21,860 nt of DNA. Source: a virus. This document shows, one piece after another, positions 4,818-21,860 of the stretch. A program made the position numbers and the translations under genes. The stretch covers positions 1-21,860 of IMG/VR virus record IMGVR_UViG_3300050343_000055. One strand, 5' to 3'. Position 1 is the stretch's first letter. Each line of letters opens with the position of its first letter. The notes beneath the pieces are model-generated. The model was given only the letters and a program-made list of their open reading frames with translations, was not told the DNA's origin and searched no databases.

Positions 4818-6598
4818 TATGTTCCTTGTCCTCTTACTATGCCTCTAGTTTGTGGTCCTGTTCCTAAAAAAGAACCTACGTCATCTGTAACTTTATCCAT
4901 TATAGTTTTGTTACCATTGTTAAGTCCATGTGTTGTAAGTACTTGTGTTGCTTTCGCCTGGTCATTAGCGTTTAATACTTCTATCCAATCTGTACTTTTC
5001 TCATCTACTCTTTCTCCAAGTAATTGAAAAGAAAAGTTTCTCCAAGGCTGTGCTATTTCTTCATAGGTTAAGTTCTCATCATAAACATCAGTACTAAATA
5101 ATACTTTCCTGATGTTCTTTAAACTGTCTCTAACTTGTTGAGCACCTACTTCTGGACTTTCAGCGTTACGAATTATGCCTGCGTATTTATCGATATCTGC
5201 TTGTTCGAAGGTACCATACAAAGGTCCTAGCCATTCTTCTGTTAATGCCTGTGCTGTTGCATATCCTGCTTGTGTTTCTGTAGGTTGTGCTTCAGAACCT
5301 TCTAACCAAGATGTCAAAGCATCTTCTCTTTGTATTCCTGATAACGGGTCTCCTAATGCTTTAGCTTGATTTAACCATGTTAGTTCTGTCCAGGTACCTG
5401 TAGTTAGTTTATTACCAAACCATTGTGTTAATGTTTCTCCATTAAATGTAACTTGGTCAGGATTACTAACGCCATTCTGTCTAAGAGTTTCTCTTGCTTT
5501 TATACGATTGTTCTTTAGTAATGCTTCAGCATCTGCAGGTAACTTAGATAAATCTTTATCTTGTGAAAGCAGTAACCAACTTCTTTCTTCTTGAGTGTGT
5601 GTCTGCCACCACTCTGTACCTTCCCATTCAAAATCTGCTATCTCTCTATTCTCAACAATACTTTCTAGCCATAGTGAATACATCTCATCATCTTCCATCC
5701 ATGGTCTTACTTCTTTTACTTTGTCAAAGTTAGAGGCTATCTGCTCAAAGAAACCACCTATACCAGATGCTTCCATATTATCTACATCTACTTCTACAAT
5801 ATTTCCTGATTGAAATGTACTATTCCATTTCTCAGAGTTTAAATCTATTGTTTGTTCTTGTGGTTTATCTACAGTAAAAAAGTTATTTATCTGTTCGTCT
5901 GTTGCAGTATATGCCATAGACAAACCTGTTTGTGGTATATCAAATGCTACATATTTTTGTCCACCAACATTCCATATCTGTCCACCTAATCTACCAAATA
6001 ATGTGTCATCTTCTACAACTACTGGGTCTTCTACAACTACTGGGTCTTCTACAACTACTGGGTCTTCTACAACTACTGGGTCTTCAACATTTGTAGATTC
6101 AGTTGTTGTTGTTTCAGGTACTGTGCCAGTAGCTCTTTGTTCTATAGTTTCTTTAGCTTTTTCTGCTGCTTGTTCTAAAGTTTCATTGGTAGCATTGATA
6201 GCTTTAAATTTGTCTATACGTGGCATACCTTCAGTCTCTGTTGTTTCTTCTTTAAGTTGGTCCATTCTGTAGTTTTCTAAATCTTCTTGGTACTCATCAG
6301 AAACAAGATAATCTATCTTTTGTTTTGCTTCTGCTTGTGCTTTTCTAGCATCAGATACATCTATAACACCATCATTTTGTTCTAGACTTGTAACTAACTT
6401 GTCTCGTTGTTCTTGTTCAATAGCTTCTAATGTAAGATAACCTTGACCAGGTACTGTATATTTAAAAGGATTTTGTGCAACTTCTTCTGGTGTTGTTTCA
6501 ACAGGTCTAAGTTTTGCTACTTCACTTTCATAAGTATCTTTATCAATATAACCATTAATTAGCTGTACTAATAAGTTACGTTCTTGTGCGTTTGCCAT
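4817..6598 (-). CDS. Probable internal virion protein with VVEDPV repeats, 593 aa
   Basis: This is a modular 593-residue protein of unrecognised family. Residues 1 to about 165 are charged and helical, with many E, K and Q. Residues about 170-197 are four tandem VEDPVV units, an acidic proline-containing spacer. A small beta-containing unit follows (GQIWNVGGQKYVAFDIPQTG). Residues about 300-345 are rich in W and E (WMEDDEMYSLWLES, FEWEGTEWW, ERSWLLL). The C-terminal third is helical ('AQALTEEWLGPLYGTFEQADIDKYAGIIRNA'). It sits among probable ejection genes and overlaps both neighbours by one base. A structural, virion-internal role is likely; an enzymatic site is not visible. The spacer probably acts as a flexible or extended linker. 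Confidence 0.65.
   Translation of the reverse strand: MANAQERNLLVQLINGYIDKDTYESEVAKLRPVETTPEEVAQNPFKYTVPGQGYLTLEAIEQEQRDKLVTSLEQNDGVIDVSDARKAQAEAKQKIDYLVSDEYQEDLENYRMDQLKEETTETEGMPRIDKFKAINATNETLEQAAEKAKETIEQRATGTVPETTTTESTNVEDPVVVEDPVVVEDPVVVEDPVVVEDDTLFGRLGGQIWNVGGQKYVAFDIPQTGLSMAYTATDEQINNFFTVDKPQEQTIDLNSEKWNSTFQSGNIVEVDVDNMEASGIGGFFEQIASNFDKVKEVRPWMEDDEMYSLWLESIVENREIADFEWEGTEWWQTHTQEERSWLLLSQDKDLSKLPADAEALLKNNRIKARETLRQNGVSNPDQVTFNGETLTQWFGNKLTTGTWTELTWLNQAKALGDPLSGIQREDALTSWLEGSEAQPTETQAGYATAQALTEEWLGPLYGTFEQADIDKYAGIIRNAESPEVGAQQVRDSLKNIRKVLFSTDVYDENLTYEEIAQPWRNFSFQLLGERVDEKSTDWIEVLNANDQAKATQVLTTHGLNNGNKTIMDKVTDDVGSFLGTGPQTRGIVRGQGT
6011..6082. repeat. 18-bp tandem repeat, four copies, inside the 593-codon gene
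   Basis: The unit TTCTACAACTACTGGGTC is repeated four times without change at 18-bp spacing, with degenerate edges. It is in frame and encodes the VEDPVV units. Identical copies at the nucleotide level point to recent expansion by slippage. Confidence 0.9.
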
Positions 6599-8890: not shown

Positions 8891-9870
8891 TACCTATTTA
8901 CAGCTCTTCTGCTTAATGAAGTAAGACTGTTTATTGTGTTTGCTGCTCTAGCACCAATTTGTCCTGCAGCTTGTGATTGTTTTTCTAAGTCTTCTCTACC
9001 TTCAAATACTTCATCGACTACTCCACTAATATCTTCTTGCAATCCCTCTACGTCTGGTTCTTGTGCTGCTGTGCCTGGAGTAAACGTTTCTTGTGCCATT
9101 GTGCTTGGAGTACTTACTGTTAAGTCTCCTTCTATAACTCTAGTGCTTCCTTCTCGTGCAGCAACATAACCGAATTCTGCAGGTGTACCTTGTCCTAGGT
9201 TTGCACTTGTTCTATTAAATTGACCAACTATTCCTGTTACCCTACTAGATATATAGTTTCTTTCTTCCGTGCTTAATGCACCACCTTTTCTAGCTTTTGC
9301 TTTTGTTAAAGTATCATTAAGTAACTCATCTATTTCTTCTTTTTCTATTTTAGGAGAACCTGTAGTCATTGCTTTACGTGCATTGTAATCAGAACGTACA
9401 GCAGATAAAGCTCCTAGCCAACTTATCTTGCCACCAGTATTCATACTAAACTCCATTAATTGTTTAATACCTTTAATAAATTCTTCGTCTACAGCAAGAC
9501 CAATAGTCTTACTTGCATCCATAATTCCTACGTTAGACATCTGTGTTTTTAAAAGTGCTATGTTATCTTTATTTAAATCTCTTGCCACTTCTCCTGCATC
9601 TCTAGCAAAATATACATGACGATATCCTTGTTGTGTTAAATATTCTTCTGCACCAACAGGTTTAATTATTTGTGTTCCATCAGGTCCATCAACTTGCATA
9701 TCATAATTAGACTGAAATCCTGTACCTAAAGGTTTATTTCTATCAGGGTCAGTTAATAAATCAATAATTAATTGTGTTGTATCTTTATCTTCTCCGTCTG
9801 GTACTACATTATCTGTATCAATAATATCTGATACGCTTCCAGTCCTTGGTATATATATGCTACTTACCAT
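8890..9870 (-). CDS. Probable internal virion protein, 326 aa
   Basis: The family is not recognised with confidence. The N-terminal 60 residues are acidic and probably flexible. A central helical region, 'KDNIALLKTQMSNVGIMD' through 'KGIKQLMEFSMNTGGKISWLGAL' (about 99-160), has the spacing of short repeats found in some phage structural proteins and loosely recalls peptidoglycan-binding helices, but I would not assert that. The C-terminal part is low-complexity (VSTPSTMAQETFTPGTAAQE) and ends in a helical, basic tail (ANTINSLTSLSRRAVNR). One-base overlaps on both sides tie it to the giant gene and the transglycosylase gene, so it is most likely a virion component made in step with them. Confidence 0.6.
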   Translation of the reverse strand: MVSSIYIPRTGSVSDIIDTDNVVPDGEDKDTTQLIIDLLTDPDRNKPLGTGFQSNYDMQVDGPDGTQIIKPVGAEEYLTQQGYRHVYFARDAGEVARDLNKDNIALLKTQMSNVGIMDASKTIGLAVDEEFIKGIKQLMEFSMNTGGKISWLGALSAVRSDYNARKAMTTGSPKIEKEEIDELLNDTLTKAKARKGGALSTEERNYISSRVTGIVGQFNRTSANLGQGTPAEFGYVAAREGSTRVIEGDLTVSTPSTMAQETFTPGTAAQEPDVEGLQEDISGVVDEVFEGREDLEKQSQAAGQIGARAANTINSLTSLSRRAVNR

Positions 9871-12800
9871 TAATTTTCAACTCCATACTTAACTACTTCA
9901 TTATAGAACACTTCTTCAAAGACTACACCAAACATAGGTTCTTTTACTATAATCTCTGATGCTTTCTGATATAACAAATCTCTTATTGCTTGTGCTTTTG
10001 CACTGTTAGTATTTGCTACCCACAACGCTGCGTCTTCTTTTGTAACTTTTTTTTGTCCAATTCTTACACCTTCTAATACATCATCTCTGTAATCTGTATA
10101 CTCTTTTATTACAGGTGTTATAGGAAAGTCTGCATACATAGGGTCATTAACAGCTTTAGTTATTAACTCTGCATTTGCAGAACGGTCTCCACCTTCTGTA
10201 GTTTGATAACCTGGTAGCTTAGCTAACTCTCCTGCTTTTGTTACAGGGTCTCCATAAGCTAAAGGAAACATTTTTGCTAAGACAATATCTACTTTTGCCA
10301 TTTCAGCTTGTAAACTTCCTTGTATCTCTCCTTCTTCATGTTTTCTTTTTTTCTCTGCTTTAGCTGCACGTTCTACTATTGATGCTGCATAGGTTGCACT
10401 TCTGTAATAAAACTCTTCTTGAGTTAAAGGAGTTACCATACCCATTCCTTTTAACGCACCATAAGCTGAGAAATCAACTTCTCCTTGTCCAAGACCTTCA
10501 AAGAAATATAAAGCATTGCCACCAATGTCAGCGAATAGTTCTGGATTTTCTAAATAGAAATCATACTCTGGTTTTGTTCTTGGTAGTTTACCTGATTCAG
10601 TAATTGATTTGCCTTTAACTTGCATTGAAGCAGAAGTAAAACTATCTTCTAAAGAATACTTATCTAATCCTAAAAACCTTACAAGGTCTTTAGTTGCCTG
10701 AAAGTCTGCTTCTTTAACACCCATAGTTGTTGCATACTCTGTTTTAATGTCTCTCCAAAAACTATGTATAACAGATAACTCTACAAAACTGTTCCAAACT
10801 AATCCACTGCTTTCGCCTTCTGCTCCATACCATTCTTGAAACGTGCTATCTTCTAAGTCTGCTCTATACAAAACATTCATCTTTGGTACTAATGGGTTAA
10901 TGTTTCTGTCCCACGCTTTTATCTGATAAATGTTATCTCTTATAATTGCAGCTTTATCAAATAAAAATTCTGGGTCTTGTACATCTTCTGGAAATAATAT
11001 AGAAGCTATTTGTGTTGATTGTGTAGTAGCTAATAAATACAAGTCTTCATCTAAACCTGTGAAGCCTAACTTAGAAGCAACTGAGTTAAGTATATTTTTA
11101 CCTGTAGCAGGTAACGTTTCTTCAAGTAACACTTCTCCAACAAAACTTTTTAAATCTCCTGCACCACCTTCAAACGGTAAACCGAATTGAAATATAGTTC
11201 TCTCTAATACTCTTCTTGCTTCTGGATTGTCTGCTGTTAATAAACCTACAGGTATAGCTACAACTGGTCCTAATGGTGGAAACAATCCACCACCTGCAAC
11301 GCCTAATGCTGATGTAGGAAAACTTCTTTTAAGTATAATTCCACTTTCATCAATACTCATGTCATCTGTCCACAATCCTTCTCCACCACTTTGTACATAA
11401 GATTCTAGAGGTGTGCCACCAACAGGCATAATTAAATAATTTTCTCCAAAACTATCTGTATAGATGATATTTTCTTCTACGCCTTTTCTATATGCAAATG
11501 CAACTTGTGCTGCAGCTCTAGTGTTTGTAGTTCCTAATTGAAACCATCGACCAAGAACTTCTCTATACGCTTCAAAGAATGGTAATCCTACTCTGTATGC
11601 TTCAGCAACATAACCTCTTTCAAGTAAGTTGTATAACAATCTGTTGTGTATTTCAAATGCTGCTTCTGCTGCTCTTCTATCTAAATCATCGTATGTCATG
11701 TTTCTTGTTATGTCTGCTCTGACATCAGCTCTATCTAACATTGTGTGATAATCTACTTCTGTCAGTTCTTGTACAATAGGACTTTGTTTAGGATTGTTAA
11801 TTATAAACTTACCTGTTTTCTCATCTAAGAAAGATTGCAACCCACCACGTTGTGCTAGTGTTACAACATCTTCATATTTCATGTTGCCTAGTTTTAATTG
11901 TGTTCTTAACTCTTTAACACTAGGTGTTGGGTTTTCTTTTAGATATGTTTCAAAATCTTTTAATACAGCATCTATATCTTTTTTAGTATTAGCACCGTAT
12001 GTTTCTCTTAACACTATACGCAAAGATGCTTTCTGTTCTGTTAATAACTTACCGTTAACAACTACTTCTTGTTTGTTTACATTGGAGTAGTACGAACCAA
12101 TCTTAGTATTTTCATCGCCTAGTCTTATGTTGGCAATGTTTTTGTCTGTAGTGTATGCTGTTCTTTCTGCGTTCTGTAAATTTACATTTAGTTCTAACTG
12201 ATGTTTAGTTGTTGCACCTAATATTCTTGGTGTGTGAATACCATCTGCATGATAAGCAACTAATGTTAGACCGTCATCTTTTTGAGTTACAGACTGCTTA
12301 ACTACTTTAGTCATTACATTATCTATTTCATCTTGGTCTAAACGTTTGTCATCTAATAATCTCTTAGCTTTTTTAACTAAATCATCTGATAGGTTAACTG
12401 GTACGTTAGGGTCATAATGATTTTTTAACATATCTGCTAATGCGTTTCTTTGTGCAAACACCATGTTGGCATCTATGTAATGTAAGTACGCTTGTTTGAA
12501 TGTAGGTATACGAACAAGTGCTGCTTCTGACTGACCTACTGTAAAAAACAATGCGTCAGTAAATGCTTTAAATTTACTTATCATTCCTTTAGGACTTACT
12601 TTTTCTATGCCAGGTACAGTAGTTGGTAAGTTTTCTGCATTTCTATTTATGAGTGGTGTCAATGTATTCTTAACACTTTGTGAGTTCATAGTTCTTAATA
12701 CTTCAAAATCACGTATGTCAACTTTTCCAACTTTACCTTGAGCTATAACATTAATTAAATCATCAGATGCTCCTGTAAAGTTATTAATAGTCATACGATG

Positions 12801-15800
12801 ATGTTTAACAAAGTCTAAAAAATCTTTATCGTTTCTAATTACAACTATGTTTGATGCTCTACCATCAACGTTTTGTCTTGACATAATTTTCCTATTTAAA
12901 GAAGCTATCTCATCCATTAAATATTTATTATTTTGTATTGCTTTTACAATATCAGCATCAGACAATCCCTGTCTCATAGCACCTGCAACTATAGGCATAA
13001 ATGGGTCATGTGCCATTTGAGTAACTAAATAATCAATATACGTTTCTATATAGTCATCATTTAATTTAAAAGCTAATGTACTTCCATCTGTTTGTGCTAC
13101 ATTCTTTTTTACTGTTTTTTGTACGTCAACGTATTTACCATTATCTTTTCTAAAGACAGAAGTAAACTTAGGGTCTCTTTCATACAGGTCTCTAACTTCT
13201 GGTACACCAAATTCTGAATTACCTTCTGTCAAAGCACCTAATGATTTTCTATATTTAAGTGGCAATTTTTCTGACAACTTACCACCTTCAATTGGTTTAG
13301 TAACTCTAAAAGGTCCACGCAAACTTGTAAGAGGAGTTACATCAATACCTTTAGTCTCCAAGTAACGTATCATAAGACCGTCAGGGTCATTAAATATCAT
13401 CTTCATGTATTCTGCAGGGTCTCTAAATATAGAAGCTAAACCTTTTGTAGATACTCGCAACATACCGTCTGTAGTTATTTTAAGTGGAAATGCAATACGT
13501 GTTATTAACTGTAGGGGCATCCATACTCTTGATATTAAACCAAAAGTTATATCTTCTGCACGAGATGGTACATCCATCACTAATTTTTTATACAAGAATG
13601 ATTCATCTGGTAAATCAGAAAAAGCATCTTTAGTTATTTGACCTAATGGAGTATCTGGGTCAAAGAAAGTACCCTTTGTTCCTTTATCTGCTTCTGCTCT
13701 AATTAGAGCTACGCTTTCATCTACCTGTTGAGAACCTACTAATTTATTTCTAAGTCTTTTTCTAATACCAGTATGTCTTAACGTGGCACGTAAATCAGGT
13801 ATGTTAATAGTCAAGTCCATAGCTTGTCCTGCTAGCCCTATAGATTTCTGTGACCATTGTGCTAACTCTTCTTCGTTAATAATCTGGTCAGCATACTGTG
13901 CTCTAGTTAAAGGGTCTACAAAACCTTCTTCATAAAATTTAGAATTTTGTGCTGCTCTATATGTTTTACCCTGGTCAGTAAATCCTCTTACGTCGTCTAA
14001 ATTGTTTTGGAAAAAATCTTGTAACTCTGCGTCTGACAAACCAAACACTGCTTTAAGTTGTATAGCACCTTCTCGCATAATTAATTCGTCATAATAAATA
14101 CTCTGTGCTAATTTATATTGTTTGTTTTGTATTGCTACATAAAACTGTTTAGACAAATCTTCTATAACAGGTGTAGGTATACTCATCATTCTTCCTGTTT
14201 TAGTAAACGTATCTACTGAACGTGAAGTGTCTGTTAGATATGCAAACGGTCTTGAAGGCAACCTAACATCAGAACCTAAGAAAATATCTTTAATACTTGA
14301 TGTAGCTGTTCTTATCCTACCTTTATCTTTAACACCACCACCTCTAATGTAGTTAGCAGTTATAGTATCGCCTGTCATGGTGTCAGCTATGTTATCAAGA
14401 AAGTTATCGCTAAATACTTTTGGTTGTAAGTGTACGTCTTTAGCTGCTGTATTCATTTTACCGTTAACACGTATGTCAGATATATAACCTTTAGTTAAAG
14501 AATTTTTTATAATATCAAAATATCCTTGTGGATTGTTTTTAGGATTATCTACTATGCGAAAAGCTACTTCAGGACTAAATCCTCTAAGTGTTAGTTCTGT
14601 AAACAATGGTGCATCTGCTTGTGCTAACTCAGCAACTTTATCAGAAAGTATTCTGATTGCATCATCTTGTCCGTTAGCAAAAAAATCTGCAGCAGTTCCT
14701 CCTGCTTGTAAGTGTTCATCTAATTGTTTGCCAACTCCAGTTAACACTTCTTCACTGGCTACGGCTCTACCACCTGCACCTACTCCTCTTGATGCCATAA
14801 GAAAAGGGTCTGTTTTTGCCATTGCATATAGATTAGAAGTAAAACCAATCCAAGCATTGAAACCATGCTTAGGGTCAAACTCCATATCACTAAGTTGTTC
14901 TTGTTCTAGTTCTTCAACTTTTTGTTTAGCAACTTCGTAATCATCTTTTGTAATTTGTCCTAAGTCGTATGCTGACTGTAATAAAAATAAATTAGTATCT
15001 GCTTCATCTTGTATTTCTGTACGGACTGCCATTTTAGGACTGTACTCTCCAGACAATGAACCAGTTAATGTATACCTAACTAAGTCTCCAAAGTTTGATG
15101 CAACACTAGCTTTTTTAAAACCTTCTCGTGTTTGTTCTGCTTCTTCTAAATATTTACCACGACCGAACCATCCTGCTAAACCTTCAGAGCTACCAGAACT
15201 AAGTACTTCGTTAAATGATTCTGTGTACACTTCTACAGCTTCGTTAAGTGTTAATTTTCTTTCTATACCACCAGTTTTTAATTTTATTTGTTCAGATAAC
15301 ACATCTGGAAATGCTTCTTCTATTGCTTCTAAATCTGTTTGTTGCAACATAGGATAACCTAAATCATCAACTAAATTTTTACTCATTAAAAAGTTTCTAG
15401 CTCTATCTGATATGTATGGTGCTTCTGTCGCTGCTTCTTTATTAATAAGAGAATTTATAAAGTTTCTTTGTGTTCTGTCAAAGTTTTCAGAAAACGAACC
15501 TACACCTGCAGCAAATGATTTAATTTTTATACCTAAAGGTATTTCATTTTTATCTGTATCTTTGTCTCCTACGTATCGTGCAAAGTCTTTGTCTATGTCT
15601 AAACCTTTACTTGCTGCCCATTCAGCTTGATATGCTTTCTGTTCTATACCAATATTATTGACAAACTGCGTACCGATACTTTCGAACAAACTGTTAAGTG
15701 TTAGTAAGGCTGCATTAATAACAGTACTTTTTCTTAGTTGTGCTTCTCCAAATAAATCTAACTGTGTTTGTCTCTGTATTTCTTTTGTGTTATTTACACC

Positions 15801-16124
15801 ATCTTTTATTCTGTTAAAAAACTTTTTAGAAAATTCTACAGTAGGAGATGTTTCTCCACTTGCATAGGTATATTCAATAGGTTTAGTTTGCATATATAGC
15901 TGTTGATATTGCTGAGTTGTTAAGTTCATAGTTGCAGAAGCAATAGCTAAATCATCTGTTTCGAATGGATTCATAGCTTTAAATGTTTCTGTTTTGTTAG
16001 CTAGTGCATCTATGCCTTCATCGCCAAGCATATCTTTTTGTACGGCAAGAGCTTGTTCTTCTGCTGCTAGTTGATTAGCTTCTTCTAATCTTTCTTCTCC
16101 CCACTTCAAGTAATATGAAGCCAT
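9870..16124 (-). CDS. Giant internal virion/ejection protein, 2084 aa
   Basis: The largest gene, about 29 percent of the window, encodes an uninterrupted 2084-residue protein. The N-terminal 500 residues are charged and helical. Around residue 865 'SRVWMPLQLITRIAFPLKIT' is followed by helical stretches, and near 1200 'FFTVGQSEAALVRIPTFKQA' recalls segments seen in very long structural proteins of marine and actinobacterial phages. At about 1287-1345 a strand-rich stretch (LTLVAYHADG, TAYTTDKNIANIRL) interrupts the helices and could be a separate domain. Near 1600-1620 there is a Gly/Pro-rich hydrophobic segment (GVAGGGLFPPLGPVVAIPVG). The C-terminus is helical and charged. No tape-measure periodicity is evident. 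Position after the portal and before a transglycosylase fits a multifunctional ejected protein. I cannot assign an enzymatic activity. Confidence 0.65.
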   Translation of the reverse strand: MASYYLKWGEERLEEANQLAAEEQALAVQKDMLGDEGIDALANKTETFKAMNPFETDDLAIASATMNLTTQQYQQLYMQTKPIEYTYASGETSPTVEFSKKFFNRIKDGVNNTKEIQRQTQLDLFGEAQLRKSTVINAALLTLNSLFESIGTQFVNNIGIEQKAYQAEWAASKGLDIDKDFARYVGDKDTDKNEIPLGIKIKSFAAGVGSFSENFDRTQRNFINSLINKEAATEAPYISDRARNFLMSKNLVDDLGYPMLQQTDLEAIEEAFPDVLSEQIKLKTGGIERKLTLNEAVEVYTESFNEVLSSGSSEGLAGWFGRGKYLEEAEQTREGFKKASVASNFGDLVRYTLTGSLSGEYSPKMAVRTEIQDEADTNLFLLQSAYDLGQITKDDYEVAKQKVEELEQEQLSDMEFDPKHGFNAWIGFTSNLYAMAKTDPFLMASRGVGAGGRAVASEEVLTGVGKQLDEHLQAGGTAADFFANGQDDAIRILSDKVAELAQADAPLFTELTLRGFSPEVAFRIVDNPKNNPQGYFDIIKNSLTKGYISDIRVNGKMNTAAKDVHLQPKVFSDNFLDNIADTMTGDTITANYIRGGGVKDKGRIRTATSSIKDIFLGSDVRLPSRPFAYLTDTSRSVDTFTKTGRMMSIPTPVIEDLSKQFYVAIQNKQYKLAQSIYYDELIMREGAIQLKAVFGLSDAELQDFFQNNLDDVRGFTDQGKTYRAAQNSKFYEEGFVDPLTRAQYADQIINEEELAQWSQKSIGLAGQAMDLTINIPDLRATLRHTGIRKRLRNKLVGSQQVDESVALIRAEADKGTKGTFFDPDTPLGQITKDAFSDLPDESFLYKKLVMDVPSRAEDITFGLISRVWMPLQLITRIAFPLKITTDGMLRVSTKGLASIFRDPAEYMKMIFNDPDGLMIRYLETKGIDVTPLTSLRGPFRVTKPIEGGKLSEKLPLKYRKSLGALTEGNSEFGVPEVRDLYERDPKFTSVFRKDNGKYVDVQKTVKKNVAQTDGSTLAFKLNDDYIETYIDYLVTQMAHDPFMPIVAGAMRQGLSDADIVKAIQNNKYLMDEIASLNRKIMSRQNVDGRASNIVVIRNDKDFLDFVKHHRMTINNFTGASDDLINVIAQGKVGKVDIRDFEVLRTMNSQSVKNTLTPLINRNAENLPTTVPGIEKVSPKGMISKFKAFTDALFFTVGQSEAALVRIPTFKQAYLHYIDANMVFAQRNALADMLKNHYDPNVPVNLSDDLVKKAKRLLDDKRLDQDEIDNVMTKVVKQSVTQKDDGLTLVAYHADGIHTPRILGATTKHQLELNVNLQNAERTAYTTDKNIANIRLGDENTKIGSYYSNVNKQEVVVNGKLLTEQKASLRIVLRETYGANTKKDIDAVLKDFETYLKENPTPSVKELRTQLKLGNMKYEDVVTLAQRGGLQSFLDEKTGKFIINNPKQSPIVQELTEVDYHTMLDRADVRADITRNMTYDDLDRRAAEAAFEIHNRLLYNLLERGYVAEAYRVGLPFFEAYREVLGRWFQLGTTNTRAAAQVAFAYRKGVEENIIYTDSFGENYLIMPVGGTPLESYVQSGGEGLWTDDMSIDESGIILKRSFPTSALGVAGGGLFPPLGPVVAIPVGLLTADNPEARRVLERTIFQFGLPFEGGAGDLKSFVGEVLLEETLPATGKNILNSVASKLGFTGLDEDLYLLATTQSTQIASILFPEDVQDPEFLFDKAAIIRDNIYQIKAWDRNINPLVPKMNVLYRADLEDSTFQEWYGAEGESSGLVWNSFVELSVIHSFWRDIKTEYATTMGVKEADFQATKDLVRFLGLDKYSLEDSFTSASMQVKGKSITESGKLPRTKPEYDFYLENPELFADIGGNALYFFEGLGQGEVDFSAYGALKGMGMVTPLTQEEFYYRSATYAASIVERAAKAEKKRKHEEGEIQGSLQAEMAKVDIVLAKMFPLAYGDPVTKAGELAKLPGYQTTEGGDRSANAELITKAVNDPMYADFPITPVIKEYTDYRDDVLEGVRIGQKKVTKEDAALWVANTNSAKAQAIRDLLYQKASEIIVKEPMFGVVFEEVFYNEVVKYGVEN

Positions 16125-16620: not shown

Positions 16621-18376
16621 CTGGACCTCCTGGTTGTGGTGGCTGACCACCTGCTAATCCTGCTAAGACAGAAGCAATATCTTGTGGTCCTTGTGGACCT
16701 ACTGGACCTTGTGGTCCACCAATAACTGCTTCTTCTTCAGGACTTGTTTCTTCTTCTGCTGTATAAAATTTATCTAGTATCTTTGTCATTTGTGCAGGAT
16801 TCTTTCGTATCTCTGCTGCTGCCATAGTAGCTTTAGGGTTACCTTGTGCTGCTTGTGCCATTAATGATTCAAACAATACGTTCTCTGCTTTTTCAGAGTT
16901 AATTCTATTTTGTATGTTTGTAATATTATCTAGACCGTCTAAGTTTTCTTGCAATGTTTGTGTGTCAATAATACCTTGTTGTTTTAATTGCAATCCAGTA
17001 ATAACTTTTTGTGGTTCATCAAACCCTGCCATAACTCCATACACTCTACGTGTCTTATACATTTCAGAAATATCTGAACTAGGAGTATAGGTTTCTTTAT
17101 ATGCTGTTCCATTGTGCATACCTGCAATAGGTTTTCTTTTATTAGGATACATAGTTTCGTCAAACTCTAATCGTTTAGCATCTACTTCTTGCAACGCATC
17201 TCTAAGTATTACTTGATACTCTCTAACGTGCATAGATGCAGATTGTCCTAACTCTTCTAATCCTCTACCAGTTACAAAACTGTTAGGAGATTGTCCATCA
17301 TCAGATACTGGATATGCAGAACCAAGTCGTAAGTGTCGTTCTAATCTATCTACTTGTTGAAATAATTGATATGGGAGATTGTTTACAGGTTTAGAAACTT
17401 GTGAGCCTGGAGCTAAATAGTTTACAGCAAATCTACCTTTACGATATTTACCTGATTCTATCTCTCCGACTATATTTGTTTCTGTAAACACTGCATCTTC
17501 CATAGCAATAGTTCCAAGAATATTTATTTTTGCCATGTTAGCCATTAAACCTATAACATGTTGAAACTGACTTTGCATTTGGTCAAAGGCAAATCTTTTT
17601 GCTATAACATACATAGGACCACTGGTTAGTGGGTTAGGAATAAAGTCTATAATCTTTCTACCTTCTGGTAAAAATATATATGTTCCATCATCATCCATAT
17701 ACTCAACAACAACTTTGCCATCGCCATTTTGATTTGACCAACTAGCTTCTCCACTGTTGTAGTAAAGACTAGACATGTCATTAGCATCTTCGTTATTGTC
17801 TCCAATAATTGCATTTTTATGTTCTGGGTATTGTTCTATTAAAGAAGATAAAGGAACTCTAGTAATGATTGCTAAATCTTTTGGTTGTTGGTCATTGCCA
17901 AACGGTCCTGGATAACAAGTAAAAGGGTCTCGTAACATTGCACAAGGATATGGATTGTTGTCTTTGTCATACTTAGTATTAATAACCCATACAACAAAAC
18001 CATAGCCAGGCAACCATCTGCCTATCTGTGGTAGTTGTAAATGTAGTTTCTGCATATCATCGTATGCACCTACAATACGTTCTAGTTTTTCTGATTTCTT
18101 TTTAGCTCGTTCTGAATCTTTAGCATTAATAACGTCTATTTTTAAATCAGGACTTCTACCTAGCTTTTGTGCAAATCGTTCTAGTGCTGATAAAAACATA
18201 TTCGGTGCAGGTAACTCGTGAAAATCTAAACTAGATTTCTCTCCAAGTAATGCTCGTACTGCTGCTTCTCCACCATTGAGGATGTCACGTATTCTAGCTC
18301 TGTCCATCATACCGTTTTGATTTATGTTTCTTAAATAATCTATTCTGTCATAAAGTTCGTCTTTAGACTTTACCAT
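16613..18376 (-). CDS. Portal protein
   Basis: This 587-residue protein follows the terminase with a seven-base overlap, the classic order. Typical portal features are an N-terminal helical region, the segment 'LPAPNMFLSALERFAQKLGR' near residue 55, and a wing-like part with 'VVWVINTKYDKDNNPYPCAM' and 'DPFTCYPGP'. A helical core follows ('DQMQSQFQHVIGLMANMAKI'), then the long crown-type helices ('SASMHVREYQVILRDALQEV'). The C-terminus is unusual: after an acidic stretch (EEETSPEEEAVIG) it has four collagen-like triplets (GPQGPVGPQGPQ) and ends in Pro/Gly-rich sequence. Twelve copies form the DNA channel at the head vertex. Family identity rests on length, segment pattern and neighbourhood. 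Confidence 0.85.
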   Translation of the reverse strand: MVKSKDELYDRIDYLRNINQNGMMDRARIRDILNGGEAAVRALLGEKSSLDFHELPAPNMFLSALERFAQKLGRSPDLKIDVINAKDSERAKKKSEKLERIVGAYDDMQKLHLQLPQIGRWLPGYGFVVWVINTKYDKDNNPYPCAMLRDPFTCYPGPFGNDQQPKDLAIITRVPLSSLIEQYPEHKNAIIGDNNEDANDMSSLYYNSGEASWSNQNGDGKVVVEYMDDDGTYIFLPEGRKIIDFIPNPLTSGPMYVIAKRFAFDQMQSQFQHVIGLMANMAKINILGTIAMEDAVFTETNIVGEIESGKYRKGRFAVNYLAPGSQVSKPVNNLPYQLFQQVDRLERHLRLGSAYPVSDDGQSPNSFVTGRGLEELGQSASMHVREYQVILRDALQEVDAKRLEFDETMYPNKRKPIAGMHNGTAYKETYTPSSDISEMYKTRRVYGVMAGFDEPQKVITGLQLKQQGIIDTQTLQENLDGLDNITNIQNRINSEKAENVLFESLMAQAAQGNPKATMAAAEIRKNPAQMTKILDKFYTAEEETSPEEEAVIGGPQGPVGPQGPQDIASVLAGLAGGQPPQPGGPVG

Positions 18377-20310
18377 CGTTTTCTATCCCATATTCCTTCG
18401 TCAAAATCTGTTGCTTCGTAGTTAGCAAAACTAGGTTCGTAATCTGTACTTAGTTCAGCTAATCGTTCTTTTTGCATACGTCTAATTGCTCTCATTGGAA
18501 ACCAACTAGCCATAACAATATCAGTCTTTGTACCTACTGTCTTGCTTTTGTTTTTAGCAGAACTAAAATACACTAACTGACTTGTATATAAGTTTACCTT
18601 TTCTTGAGCTTCAAAGCCCATGTATGGTAAATTAATTATACCTTCTTGAAACGCAGGTCGCATAGCAGTAACACCAAAAATAGGGTCAAACTTATTAGAG
18701 TACGTTTCATGTCCTTCTAGAAATATACCATGTTGTGAGGCAAAATCACGTATAGATTTATCTTGTCGTATAGCTTTTTGAAAACCGTTTTCTTCTATAA
18801 CCCAATGCGAACAATTATATTTTTTCCACCAGTCTTTCATTACACTGAGAGCTTCTGGAATACCACCACCTAAATTGTTTGACATATCTACCATATACAT
18901 AATGCCGTCAGCAGGACCATACGCCCATAAAAATGCAGCTTGATAACCAGTTGAGGCAGGGTCAAGTCCTGCGATAAGGCGTGTGCCTCTAGGTATCTGC
19001 CCTATGTCCCTCTTCTGGTCACGACATGATTCTATTTCTTCTCGACTAAACAAAGTTAAACCTTCTGGCATTGCAACATTAAGATATACCATTTCGTATA
19101 TAGCTCTACCACCTGTAGTTTCTGCTGCACGTTTTCTATCCATTAACCATTTGTATGTACGTTTACTTGCCCACAACATACAATCTTTATGGTCTTGTTC
19201 TTCCCAATCTGTTTTAACACAAGCTGTGTCATGTGCCTCTTCGACTTGTGTTGTCCAAGATTCGTTATCTAAAAGATGTGAATATATATCGTCATAGTGT
19301 TGTCGTGAACCAATAGTAACCATAGCTGTATGTTCCTCTTTACGACTAGACAGTGTTGTAGTCCACCAGTTTCTGGTGTTCTCTCTTGATGCAGGTTGCA
19401 TTGTAGAGCTGTGGTCTTCAATGTCATCTGCAATAATTATGTCGCAGTCACGTGATAAGATTTTACCACCACGTCCAATGCCTACCATAGTCGGACTCTT
19501 GATACCAGTAACCGTTCTCGTACCAACAGTAAAACCACTTTGTGACCAAGACTTAGCAGATTTAGTTTTAGGTTTAAACTTAATGCCTGGTCCACATATC
19601 TCTTCTATTAATAATTCGTTAAACTCTAACTGGTCAATAACAGAACCCATAGCGTTCTTAGCAATGTCTTCGTTACCACCTACCCATAAAATTCTAATGT
19701 TAGGATTGTTGCATATAAGCCATATAACAAAATGTATAAGCAAGTCTGTTTTGCCGTGTCGTGGTGGAGACAATATCATGTGCTGTCCACCTGTCTCTAT
19801 TGTGTGCATAATCTGTTCTATCCATTTTTTATGGAACTCTGGTGTTTCGTATGGAATACCCTGTTCAGTTCTAAAATATCTTGCTCTAAACTTATCAAAG
19901 TCTTGTAATGTAATTTCTGCTACTTGAGGTACTGTCCAGTTTTCTTGTTGATTAGCAATACTTATATCTTCTAGGTATGCCTGGTATGCCATAGAAACAG
20001 CAGCATCAGTTGTGCCAAGTATCTTAGCTACACCAGATATAGTATTAGTCTTATCAAAAATCTCAAGTGCTAGTCCAGATTCTTTAATATCGTCATACAC
20101 TTGACCACGTCTAGAGGAGACATTTTTTTTGTGGCTAGGTATTTCTAGGGTGTCTTCTTCTTGTGTCCAGGTAGTGCCTAGTTTTTTTGCACGTTTCTTT
20201 TGTTGTGCTATTCGGTTCGAACATCGGTCACTACAAAACTTAGAACGTCCTTTAGGTAAAGGTCTATGACAACCTGCTGCATAACAAAGTTTACTTGACA
20301 TAACCGTCAC
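18370..20310 (-). CDS. terL: Large terminase subunit with N-terminal zinc finger and HTH
   Basis: This is the DNA-packaging motor, 646 residues from GTG 20310; ATG 20301, three codons later, is an equally likely start. Residues 9-30 hold a zinc-finger pattern (C-x4-C, then C-x3-C in FCSDRCSNR). Residues about 86-117 form a helix-turn-helix-like segment (TISGVAKILGTTDAAVSMAY). The ATPase has Walker A PPRHGKT (182-188) and Walker B DIIIADDIED (290-299). The RNase H-like nuclease shows 'LDPAS' (D450), 'VIEENG' (about 505) and 'TDIVMASW' (about 593), the usual acidic triad positions. The N-terminal additions are not part of the core motor and could do the DNA-recognition work of a small terminase. 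No separate small terminase gene is visible in the window. Confidence 0.93.
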   Translation of the reverse strand: MTVMSSKLCYAAGCHRPLPKGRSKFCSDRCSNRIAQQKKRAKKLGTTWTQEEDTLEIPSHKKNVSSRRGQVYDDIKESGLALEIFDKTNTISGVAKILGTTDAAVSMAYQAYLEDISIANQQENWTVPQVAEITLQDFDKFRARYFRTEQGIPYETPEFHKKWIEQIMHTIETGGQHMILSPPRHGKTDLLIHFVIWLICNNPNIRILWVGGNEDIAKNAMGSVIDQLEFNELLIEEICGPGIKFKPKTKSAKSWSQSGFTVGTRTVTGIKSPTMVGIGRGGKILSRDCDIIIADDIEDHSSTMQPASRENTRNWWTTTLSSRKEEHTAMVTIGSRQHYDDIYSHLLDNESWTTQVEEAHDTACVKTDWEEQDHKDCMLWASKRTYKWLMDRKRAAETTGGRAIYEMVYLNVAMPEGLTLFSREEIESCRDQKRDIGQIPRGTRLIAGLDPASTGYQAAFLWAYGPADGIMYMVDMSNNLGGGIPEALSVMKDWWKKYNCSHWVIEENGFQKAIRQDKSIRDFASQHGIFLEGHETYSNKFDPIFGVTAMRPAFQEGIINLPYMGFEAQEKVNLYTSQLVYFSSAKNKSKTVGTKTDIVMASWFPMRAIRRMQKERLAELSTDYEPSFANYEATDFDEGIWDRKRW

Positions 20311-20531: not shown

Positions 20532-20813
20532 TTACCACTTTACCTTATTTGCCCAGTACGCTGCAGAACTAGGACCTTTTTTTATATTTTTTGCATGTCT
20601 TGCTTTAAATGCTTTGTTACGCTTTGTGCCATCAGGACTACCTTTTTTTCCTGCTTGACCAAATCTAATTAGTTTGTACTCGCTACCATAATGTGCCATA
20701 ACGACATGCGAGTGTCCACCTTGTGTAGATGCTTTAGGTTTGTTAACTCCTTGCAGCCCCAGGCGTTTCATAGTCGACTTGACTCTATCTGGTGTTGGTC
20801 CTCCGTGTGGCAT
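20532..20813 (-). CDS. 93-residue basic protein of a conserved marine-phage type
   Basis: The protein is basic. It contains 'HSHVVMAHYGSEYKLIRFGQ' followed by the core 'GKKGSPDGTKRNKAFKARHA' and the ending 'SAAYWANKVKW'. The series IRFGQ-x-G-x-x-G-S-x-D-G-T-K, then KARHAKNI, then SAAYWANK-x-KW is a pattern I know from hypothetical proteins of marine phages. Its function is not known. It overlaps the 42-codon gene by one base (TAATG) and precedes the 46-codon gene by one base. The strong basic charge and compact motif suggest a nucleic-acid-associated role. Confidence 0.8.
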   Translation of the reverse strand: MPHGGPTPDRVKSTMKRLGLQGVNKPKASTQGGHSHVVMAHYGSEYKLIRFGQAGKKGSPDGTKRNKAFKARHAKNIKKGPSSAAYWANKVKW

Positions 20814-20941
20814 TATCTTTTTGCCGTCTTATACAAACGCTTACTATTTTTAGTATGTTTTTTACCTGTATGAATTTGTCCATTAGGCATCTTATGATGT
20901 GAGCCTTTGTACTCTTTACCTGCTTTTGTATATACTTTCAT
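20813..20941 (-). CDS. 42-residue basic protein
   Basis: This frame reads MKVYTKAGKEYKGSHHKMPN then GQIHTGKKHTKNSKRLYKTAKR. The pattern KEYKG-x-x-HKMPNG-x-x-HTG-x-x-HT-x-x-SK is familiar from small hypothetical proteins next to the 93-residue type in marine phages. The His residues (15, 16, 24, 29) could bind a metal, but this is a guess. Start and stop each share one base with a neighbour. Confidence 0.65.
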   Translation of the reverse strand: MKVYTKAGKEYKGSHHKMPNGQIHTGKKHTKNSKRLYKTAKR

Positions 20942-21009
20942 TAGTATTTAGTTTTTTTCTTTTTTTTCTTAGTATTCTTTTTTGGTTTACTCTTCATTTT
21001 TCCGTACAT
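20941..21009 (-). CDS. 22-residue poly-lysine peptide, first gene of the late cluster
   Basis: The shortest gene called here encodes MYGKMKSKPKKNTKKKKKKTKY; 12 of 22 residues are Lys. It has a good ribosome binding site (TAGGAG, five to six bases before ATG 21009), lies about 20 bases downstream of a candidate extended -10 promoter, and its stop shares one base with the next start. These features support translation, although a low-complexity peptide of this size could also be a leader that mainly couples translation into the cluster. Confidence 0.5.
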   Translation of the reverse strand: MYGKMKSKPKKNTKKKKKKTKY

Positions 21010-21034
21010 AAATACTCCTACATTATTTTTCTTT

Positions 21035-21043
21035 AGTATAACA
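21035..21043 (-). promoter_or_regulatory. Extended -10 promoter for the terminase cluster
   Basis: The minus strand reads TGTTATACT, a TG-n-TATACT extended -10 element (five of six matches to TATAAT). Transcription would begin near 21028, giving a short leader that holds the TAGGAG site of the first gene. No -35 match is seen; that place is occupied by a hairpin. Confidence 0.45.
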
Positions 21044-21076
21044 CAAAACCCCGTTCGGGCAGGAACAGGGCTGTGT
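21041..21076 (-). terminator. Terminator-like hairpin just upstream of the late promoter
   Basis: ACACA/TGTGT, CCC/GGG and GTTC/GAAC pair in nested order with small internal mismatches around a six-base loop. On the minus strand the inner stem is followed directly by TTTTGTGTT, a weak U-tract. It could stop upstream transcription before the late promoter, or alternatively be a regulatory RNA stem. It abuts and slightly overlaps the promoter. Confidence 0.45.
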
Positions 21077-21114
21077 AAATTAAGATATCCTATAATCTAA
21101 TTATTACTTGTACT

Positions 21115-21134
21115 ATAACAACTTGTTGTGTTAT
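21115..21134. repeat. Inverted repeat, operator-like
   Basis: ATAACAAC and GTTGTGTTAT form an imperfect inverted repeat around TT (one bulged base). It lies about 75 bases upstream of the late promoter, so it could be a protein binding site, but the sequence is simple enough to arise by chance. Confidence 0.3.
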
Positions 21135-21139
21135 GGAGG

Positions 21140-21216
21140 AAAAAAAAATTTTTATTAGGTAGGAGGATGCCGTTGCTCTTGCGAGTTCTAACATCCCTGG
21201 TCTAAGACGTCCTACC
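21140..21216 (-). ncRNA. Candidate small structured RNA with three-way junction
   Basis: Read on the minus strand, GGTAGGA (21216-21210) pairs with TCCTACC (21164-21158) over seven perfect pairs. Inside are a small hairpin GTC-TTA-GAC and a second arm in which GGATG pairs with CATCC, continuing through an internal loop to CTC-GCAA-GAG, a GNRA tetraloop. The GCAA loop is on the minus strand, which favours that strand. After the closing stem come nine bases and then nine T residues (21148-21140), a possible but poorly spaced terminator. A promoter-like sequence lies about 45 bases upstream. I cannot match it to a named RNA family. Confidence 0.45.
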
Positions 21217-21258
21217 ATCAATCGAGATACATAATACAAAGGGAATGTATATGTTTTT

Positions 21259-21285
21259 ATTATACTACATTGTGCATTTAGTCAA
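21259..21285 (-). promoter_or_regulatory. Promoter-like TTGACT / TATAAT
   Basis: The minus strand has TTGACT and a perfect TATAAT separated by 15 bases, shorter than the preferred 17. The start would be near 21252, in front of the candidate structured RNA. Confidence 0.42.
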
Positions 21286-21293
21286 GAGAAACC

Positions 21294-21354
21294 TGAGGGC
21301 TACGTGAGAATACTAGGCGAAAGGAGGAAACTCCTAGAAAAAACGCAACCCTCA
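21294..21354 (+). other. Structured element closed by TGAGGG/CCCTCA, GAAA-capped hairpin
   Basis: TGAGGG (21294-21299) can pair with CCCTCA (21349-21354). Inside, AGGAG pairs with CTCCT around a GAAA tetraloop (21327-21330), and CTAG at 21313 can extend the stem with CTAG at 21334 by looping out GCGAAAG. The GNRA loop is on the plus strand, opposite to the genes, so strand assignment is tentative. Confidence 0.35.
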
Positions 21355-21464
21355 CTATTAATACTACACTTAACATCTCGACCTGCTATAGTAAGTTTTA
21401 ACAAATATTTTTATTAAGTACTTTGTTACAAGTAAAGTTGCCATCGAGGGGCAGAAAGTTAGGG

Positions 21465-21480
21465 ATACTTAACCAAGTAT
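21465..21480. repeat. Perfect short hairpin
   Basis: ATACTT and AAGTAT pair over six bases around AACC. No T-run follows on either strand and no gene is nearby. Confidence 0.3.
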
Positions 21481-21694
21481 ACAGCAGAAACACAAACCTA
21501 ATACTCAAGGACCTAGGGACAATAAAGATTAGACTCCAATAGCTTTTTAAGCAGTGTGGCTCGTTATAACCATCCGACCAGTAACCAGGTACTAACCAAT
21601 AAACAATACCTACCGTTACTGTACCTCTTTTATAGAGTGAATAACTAGGTATAAATTAACAGATATCTCTAAGGGATTACATACTATATAACTA

Positions 21695-21715
21695 TGGGGT
21701 GCACATTTAACCCCA
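21695..21715. repeat. GC-rich hairpin in AT-rich surroundings
   Basis: TGGGGT and ACCCCA pair perfectly around nine bases that include GTGCAC. It is not followed by a T-run on either strand, so it is not a terminator. Confidence 0.35.
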
Positions 21716-21860
21716 CCAAATTATATATAGGCTCTATCATTCTTAGACATTCTTATTTATTCTCTACCTGCCTTACTCTATTATTGTTCTGTTCTCCTAT
21801 GGCTCTAGATTGTCTAATTATGTACCCGTTTTAAATCTTTCTAAGAGGGTGGATGGGTGT

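Follow-up and report, generated by a model that had tools for sequence, protein, structure and literature searches.

Small RNAs with anti-Shine-Dalgarno (anti-SD) loops have been described in a few bacterial families; the alpha-r14 sRNAs are related to the cuckoo/CcsR RNAs. NfeR1, an alpha-r14 RNA of Sinorhizobium meliloti, is described as carrying ultraconserved, unpaired anti-SD motifs on variable stems, and as silencing ntrB through pairing where its translation begins (PMC10746234). In Staphylococcus aureus, RNAIII and RsaA mask the Shine-Dalgarno (SD) sites of mRNAs with an unpaired C-rich motif, which is reported as a short UCCC seed in larger RNAs, alongside a second loop-loop contact and RNase III (PMC3961350). 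Phages, too, are described as blocking translation with RNAs of their own, among them the antisense RNAs c4 (P1/P7), sar, and DicF (PMC12197685), and the Yfr2 family of cyanobacteria as having a conserved, exposed motif, GUGUGUAGGAG (PMC2518516).

Here we analyse one stretch of viral DNA (the window, 21,860 bases, comprising the whole virus record), and describe within it a small RNA structure, designated M2. The alpha-r14 RNAs and M2 are alike in having an unpaired, conserved anti-SD motif on differing stems (PMC10746234). They differ in that the motif is CCUCCUCCC in alpha-r14 and AGUUUCCUCCUUUCG in the M2 loop of the window and nearly all of its relatives, in that alpha-r14 RNAs are depicted with three hairpins, each bearing the motif, whereas M2 has one anti-SD hairpin inside one outer stem, and in their location on a bacterial chromosome and in phages respectively; moreover, silencing at the translation start is reported for alpha-r14, whereas for M2 complementarity is computed only. 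RNAIII and RsaA share with M2 a C-rich loop able to cover SD sites (for M2, by complementarity alone), although they are not known to have a conserved 15-nt loop of the M2 kind. The c4, sar and DicF RNAs are, as summarized in their source, specific to one or a few messages, whereas M2 is a single hairpin common to unrelated phages. Yfr2, like M2, is a small RNA with a conserved exposed motif, but its motif is SD-like and the M2 loop is anti-SD; homology with Yfr2 is ruled out on this basis, the M2 loop lacking GUGUGUAGGAG.

The gene-free region beside the late genes

An earlier note on this DNA had pointed to an unusually long gene-free stretch in a compact phage genome, and the stretch is real: no ORF of credible length is present in 21010–21860, where ORFs of 46 and 49 aa coincide with conserved noncoding elements, and the genes at its left, all on the minus strand and reading leftward, abut or overlap by about 1 base as far as 20941. 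The first ORF of this late block encodes a very basic 22-aa product (20941–21009, minus strand), has an SD-like TAGGAG upstream, and is conserved in relatives; because it closes the late block at 21009, the left boundary at 21010 is correct. The right end of the window falls inside the gene-free region, and the note had proposed extending the contig in that direction. The near-identical locus L007, whose 1,550-nt upstream region is 99.5% identical to that of the window, allows this: its next ORF is divergent and ends 77 nt past the right edge of the window, such that the true gap is roughly 0.93–1.0 kb, followed by divergent genes. The gap separates the late block (terminase, major head protein, and tail genes) from oppositely oriented small genes and has several conserved elements inside, which supports the note's suggestion of a control region between gene blocks. 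'Early' and 'late' are used here according to the direction of the genes, the small divergent block being presumed early.

The terminase large subunit (18370–20310) belongs to phrog_38. A comparison by terminase identified no close named relatives, the best named phages having well below 60% identity and at most 70% coverage, and 80 IMG/VR loci with terminase relatives were retrieved for comparison. When the upstream region was compared with these 80 loci by blastn, the noncoding block was seen to be kept beyond the nearest relatives, with its core still present at about 76% terminase identity; in a seven-sequence alignment about 590 nt are conserved in the nearest relatives, with nearly invariant runs. 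The folding energy of the whole stretch is by itself unremarkable (z 0.07 for the plus strand; z -2.05 for the minus strand, with 1 of 20 shuffles as good), and the evidence is comparative. Two other parts of the window are of note. Positions 20532–20813 encode a small phrog_7595 protein whose DNA is 72–77% identical to Roseobacter and Celeribacter phages (Cobavirinae) and others, the rest of the region queried with this gene having few matches in those phages, and positions 9870–16124 encode a protein of 2084 aa for which neither PHROG nor Pfam gave a match.

A decayed gene, which the note had raised as an alternative to be recognised by an intact gene in homologues, is ruled out: relatives with the RNA retain covarying noncoding structure and have no ORF there. 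In four relatives without M2 (L053–L056) this place, some 1850 to 270 nt before the terminase, is occupied by a gene of about 525 aa, which in L055 encodes a C-5 cytosine methylase; this is a different gene and no intact form of the window's sequence.

GOLLD and ROOL are large noncoding structured RNAs found in phage genomes, as M2 is a small one, and both are included in Rfam 15. The note had considered a large RNA of this type, and the conservation of about 590 nt in the nearest relatives is what such an RNA would be expected to show, but that the whole stretch is one is extremely unlikely. A search of the window with Rfam 15 gave nothing at gathering score and nothing above chance at E≤10, no tRNA, tmRNA or known RNA family was found in it, and 14 related loci gave no match except one tRNA. 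Furthermore, M2 occurs without a neighbouring module, M1b, and in either orientation to it. Because one module is inverted relative to its neighbour in several relatives, the modules do not form one large RNA, and a single RNA of about 590 nt is ruled out by these orientation flips.

The six hairpins that the note had listed each map to an element of the region. The hairpin at 21041 is the minus-strand, intrinsic-terminator-like hairpin before the late genes (21047–21072), reported by a consensus scan, and that at 21158 is M3 (21158–21216, minus strand), a conserved element with a GGTAGGA ... TCCTACC hairpin and then an A/U-rich run. In L016, a ferredoxin-type gene (6340–6585; Pfam Fer4_15) lies between M3 and the late terminator-like hairpin, and a near-identical copy of this stretch is present in L027. 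The hairpin at 21294 is the covarying RNA M2, and that at 21465 is a covarying helix of M1b (21430–21506), which has three such helices, with 25 double-change cells versus 7 in shuffles (10 sequences). M1b is placed provisionally on the minus strand, the strand test having given 10 G-U cells, every one at a single invariant pair, and 8 cells that are A-C or C-A; the module is present in only part of the window family. The hairpins at 21622 and 21695 both fall in element E1 (approximately 21594–21717; GGGTTWAAT ... CTGTTAA ...), which is conserved whether or not a relative has M2, and which in many relatives is followed by two or three tandem palindromic TACTATATATAGT-like boxes. E1 is a putative regulatory DNA site, and the boxes are perhaps operator or origin repeats.

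Structure, strand and boundaries of M2

M2 (21288–21363, minus strand) is matched by covariance model R1 with 71.3 bits. Its outer stem is formed by 21343–21354 paired with 21294–21305, and encloses an inner hairpin with a conserved 17-mer (21317–21333) that includes the 15-nt loop. In distant loci nhmmer found the same core, the hairpin TAGG-AGTTTCCTCCTTTCG-CCTA within an outer stem GAGGG.../...CCCTC. Across relatives the stems vary on both sides and the loop stays. In a seed of 12 sequences, 16 of the 18 pairs have changed on both sides and 98.1% of cells are paired, compared with 35–49% in a control with slid partners; these are 12 of 15 sequences, L037, L165, and L117 having been left out for a one-column shift, and all three were recovered by the model. 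With 63 distinct sequences, in an alignment that was fitted to R1, 97.9% of cells are paired and there are 194 double-change cells versus 45 in shuffles. A MAFFT alignment of 46 sequences (A1) misaligned the 3' arm. G-U cells outnumber A-C cells by 74 to 7 in alignment A5 and by 27 to 3 in alignment A4, and the folded strand is therefore the minus strand of the window. The plus-strand reading, in which the loop would be GAAAGGAGG, a perfect Shine-Dalgarno sequence, is ruled out by the A5 counts, and other groups, whose terminators are on the opposite strand, contradict it as well. We are thus almost certain that M2 is a real, conserved, and strand-specific RNA structure. The loop hardly varies, whereas the stems, flanks, and gene contexts around it change completely; it is not absolutely fixed, as L076 has one extra C and L029/L032 have a more divergent loop.

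A promoter-like site lies at the start of M2 (21361–21389, minus strand), with TAGTAT at 21361–21366 and ATAGCA at 21384–21389 separated by a 17-nt spacer. A -10-like hexamer is positioned 2–9 nt before the outer stem in all 46 window-family representatives, which is partly expected by chance since several hexamers were allowed in AT-rich DNA; by eye, ATANCA usually lies about 17 nt before it. Behind the outer stem is a terminator-like U-rich tail, weak in the window itself (21286–21293, minus strand): in the 46 representatives the ten bases after the stem have a mean of 5.8 T, versus 3.5 further upstream. A consensus terminator scan, whose loop limit is 8, did not report M2, in spite of its stem and, on average, its U-rich tail; a conserved loop is no feature of intrinsic terminators. 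A second promoter-like site, TTGACT-15-TATAAT (21259–21285, minus strand), which has a short spacer and is conserved in the seven-sequence alignment, lies between M2 and the late genes, and a sigma-70 consensus scan reported neither site. The promoter-like site and the U-rich tail suggest that M2 may be transcribed as its own small RNA, with a predicted length of about 70 nt from their positions.

A nearly invariant loop on free stems, occurring in inverted copies, also resembles the DNA hairpins of mobile elements, and DNA, too, tolerates G-T pairs, both of which would suit a single-stranded DNA hairpin acting in recombination, replication, or packaging. This is very unlikely given the promoter-like site and U-rich tail, and a recombinase was seen only in L200 among the neighbouring proteins scanned.

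Distribution and gene contexts

R1 matches the window and 33 of the 80 terminase-scan loci, a set chosen independently of the motif. Among 95 further loci it matches 90, these being all 90 loci found by pattern and none of five named phage regions; the 95 (L002–L006 and L087–L176) are drawn from 118 loci outside the terminase scan that are not genome loci, with L177–L199 left out. Because the 90 were picked by the 17-mer, their inner-hairpin count follows by construction, and independent evidence comes from the outer stem. Allowing one W position, the 17-mer is present in at least 119 viral DNA stretches, compared with none in the viral collection for a permuted 17-mer and one for the C-G closed form. 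In bacterial and archaeal contigs (257 Gb), the plain 17-mer occurs 19 times. At least four flanking pairs are present beside the 17-mer at 111 of 113 new viral loci, many of which are close relatives of each other, versus 2 of the 19 genome loci. The stronger of these two, L200, is on a contig that also encodes an integrase, a terminase, and a major head protein, and its hairpin follows the head gene, on the same strand, at a distance of about 60 nt. The pair adjoining the 17-mer is purine-pyrimidine, with A-T in 38 stretches and C-G, A-C, or G-T in none, G-C not being tallied separately. Two short queries against named phages gave chance-level matches only, and a query with L147 gave none. 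A PMC full-text search, whose scope excludes most subscription journals and bioRxiv, revealed no published description of the loop (0 papers for GUUUCCUCCUUUCG and UUUCCUCCUUU).

In the window family, M2 lies near E1, usually in the same orientation. E1 is in view in 53 terminase loci; M2 accompanies it in 31 of these and is absent from the other 22, and is therefore not essential. It is convergent with M1b in L067/L068, L089, and L106, and in tandem with it in L138. Elsewhere the hairpin is located behind a 645-aa gene adjoining an AAA ATPase gene, with a terminator next (L147), after a gene for ribonucleotide reductase (L093), downstream of one for a helicase (L131), between two same-strand genes (L179), or in gaps between opposite-strand genes (L088, L119, L142, and L101). 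M2 is thus common to phages with different gene sets and in unrelated contexts.

In the L147, L093, L131, and L200 groups the hairpin is behind same-strand protein genes, where a cis role is just as natural. The put and nut hairpins of other phages are cis-acting transcription elements, and M2 might similarly act on RNA polymerase or a nuclease as a nascent hairpin, in antitermination or 3'-end processing, as could be suggested by the intrinsic terminator that directly follows it in the L102/L147/L154/L183 and L131 groups and by its position behind the capsid gene in L200. We nonetheless regard this explanation for M2 as quite improbable, as in the window family M2 comes with a promoter-like site and a U-rich tail of its own, it is inverted with respect to the adjoining module in L067/L068, L089, and L106, and its match to the SD sequence would have to be a coincidence.

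The anti-SD loop and its possible targets

The loop contains CCUCCUUUC, the anti-SD sequence of 16S rRNA, and CCTCCTTTC is an exact match to one 16S 3' end (L222). Patterns for 16S ends matched four places in three of five genomes, of which only L222 reads as a 16S 3' end, as judged by its resemblance to the general 16S end sequence; they had no match in the Pelagibacteraceae genome behind L214. The identity to L222, together with conservation of the whole 15-nt loop beyond what SD pairing needs, raises the possibility of a decoy that mimics the anti-SD tail and binds a ribosomal protein, a maturation factor, or a toxin nuclease, but the remainder of the loop (AGUU..., ...G) differs from the 16S tail and a decoy seems improbable.

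The predicted pairing of the loop with translation starts differs strongly between the two gene blocks. For divergent-side genes the mean duplex energy is -9.85 kcal/mol (n=410; -5.97 when shuffled), whereas for late-side genes it is -4.91 kcal/mol (n=226; shuffled -4.53; Mann-Whitney p 1.7e-41), and perfect complementarity of at least 7 nt is found for 40% of 410 divergent-side versus 1.7% of 237 late-side genes. Relatives without M2 have the same contrast (-8.75, n=72, versus -4.60, n=52), which is therefore permissive and not proof, and may reflect ordinary SD usage. There is no sign of co-adaptation beyond GGAGG, an A being first in 94 of 122 cases with M2 and 10 of 13 without. Matches of at least 8 nt are found for 64 of 410 genes with M2 versus 3 of 72 without (Fisher p 0.009), a comparison that is confounded by relatedness and carries no weight.

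A plausible model is that the 15-nt loop is presented by the outer stem and inner hairpin, and would pair in trans with strong SD sites and so block ribosome loading. The likeliest targets would be the phage's own divergent, presumably early, genes, because their start sites pair well with the loop and the late ones poorly, and expression would in this way be switched from early to late at the level of translation. We favour, tentatively and at slightly less than even confidence, this reading of M2 as a trans-acting anti-SD small RNA that represses the phage's own early translation; both targets and effect are inferred. Host messages with strong SD sites could be affected too, and it is conceivable that they are the main targets, with M2 generally lowering host translation during infection. 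The loop matches the most general SD complement and the hairpin is common to phages that differ in gene sets and contexts, but the strongest SD sites are those of the phage's own divergent genes, which would suffer as well, and we consider the host an unlikely principal target.

A more speculative proposal than repression of the phage's own early translation is that the module has been passed between unrelated phages as a portable anti-SD copy on a fixed 15-nt loop, acting as a general switch that shuts off SD-led messages, early or host, and favours the late ones with weak SD sites. Many uncultured viruses have this nearly invariant anti-SD loop, whereas bacterial genomes, except for one phage contig, have it at about the level expected by chance. 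Its 17 letters and stem provide a clear handle for finding the RNA in metatranscriptomes, and M2 offers a test of whether phage genes are timed through SD strength. If the proposed role is true, it would give phages a new means of controlling translation.
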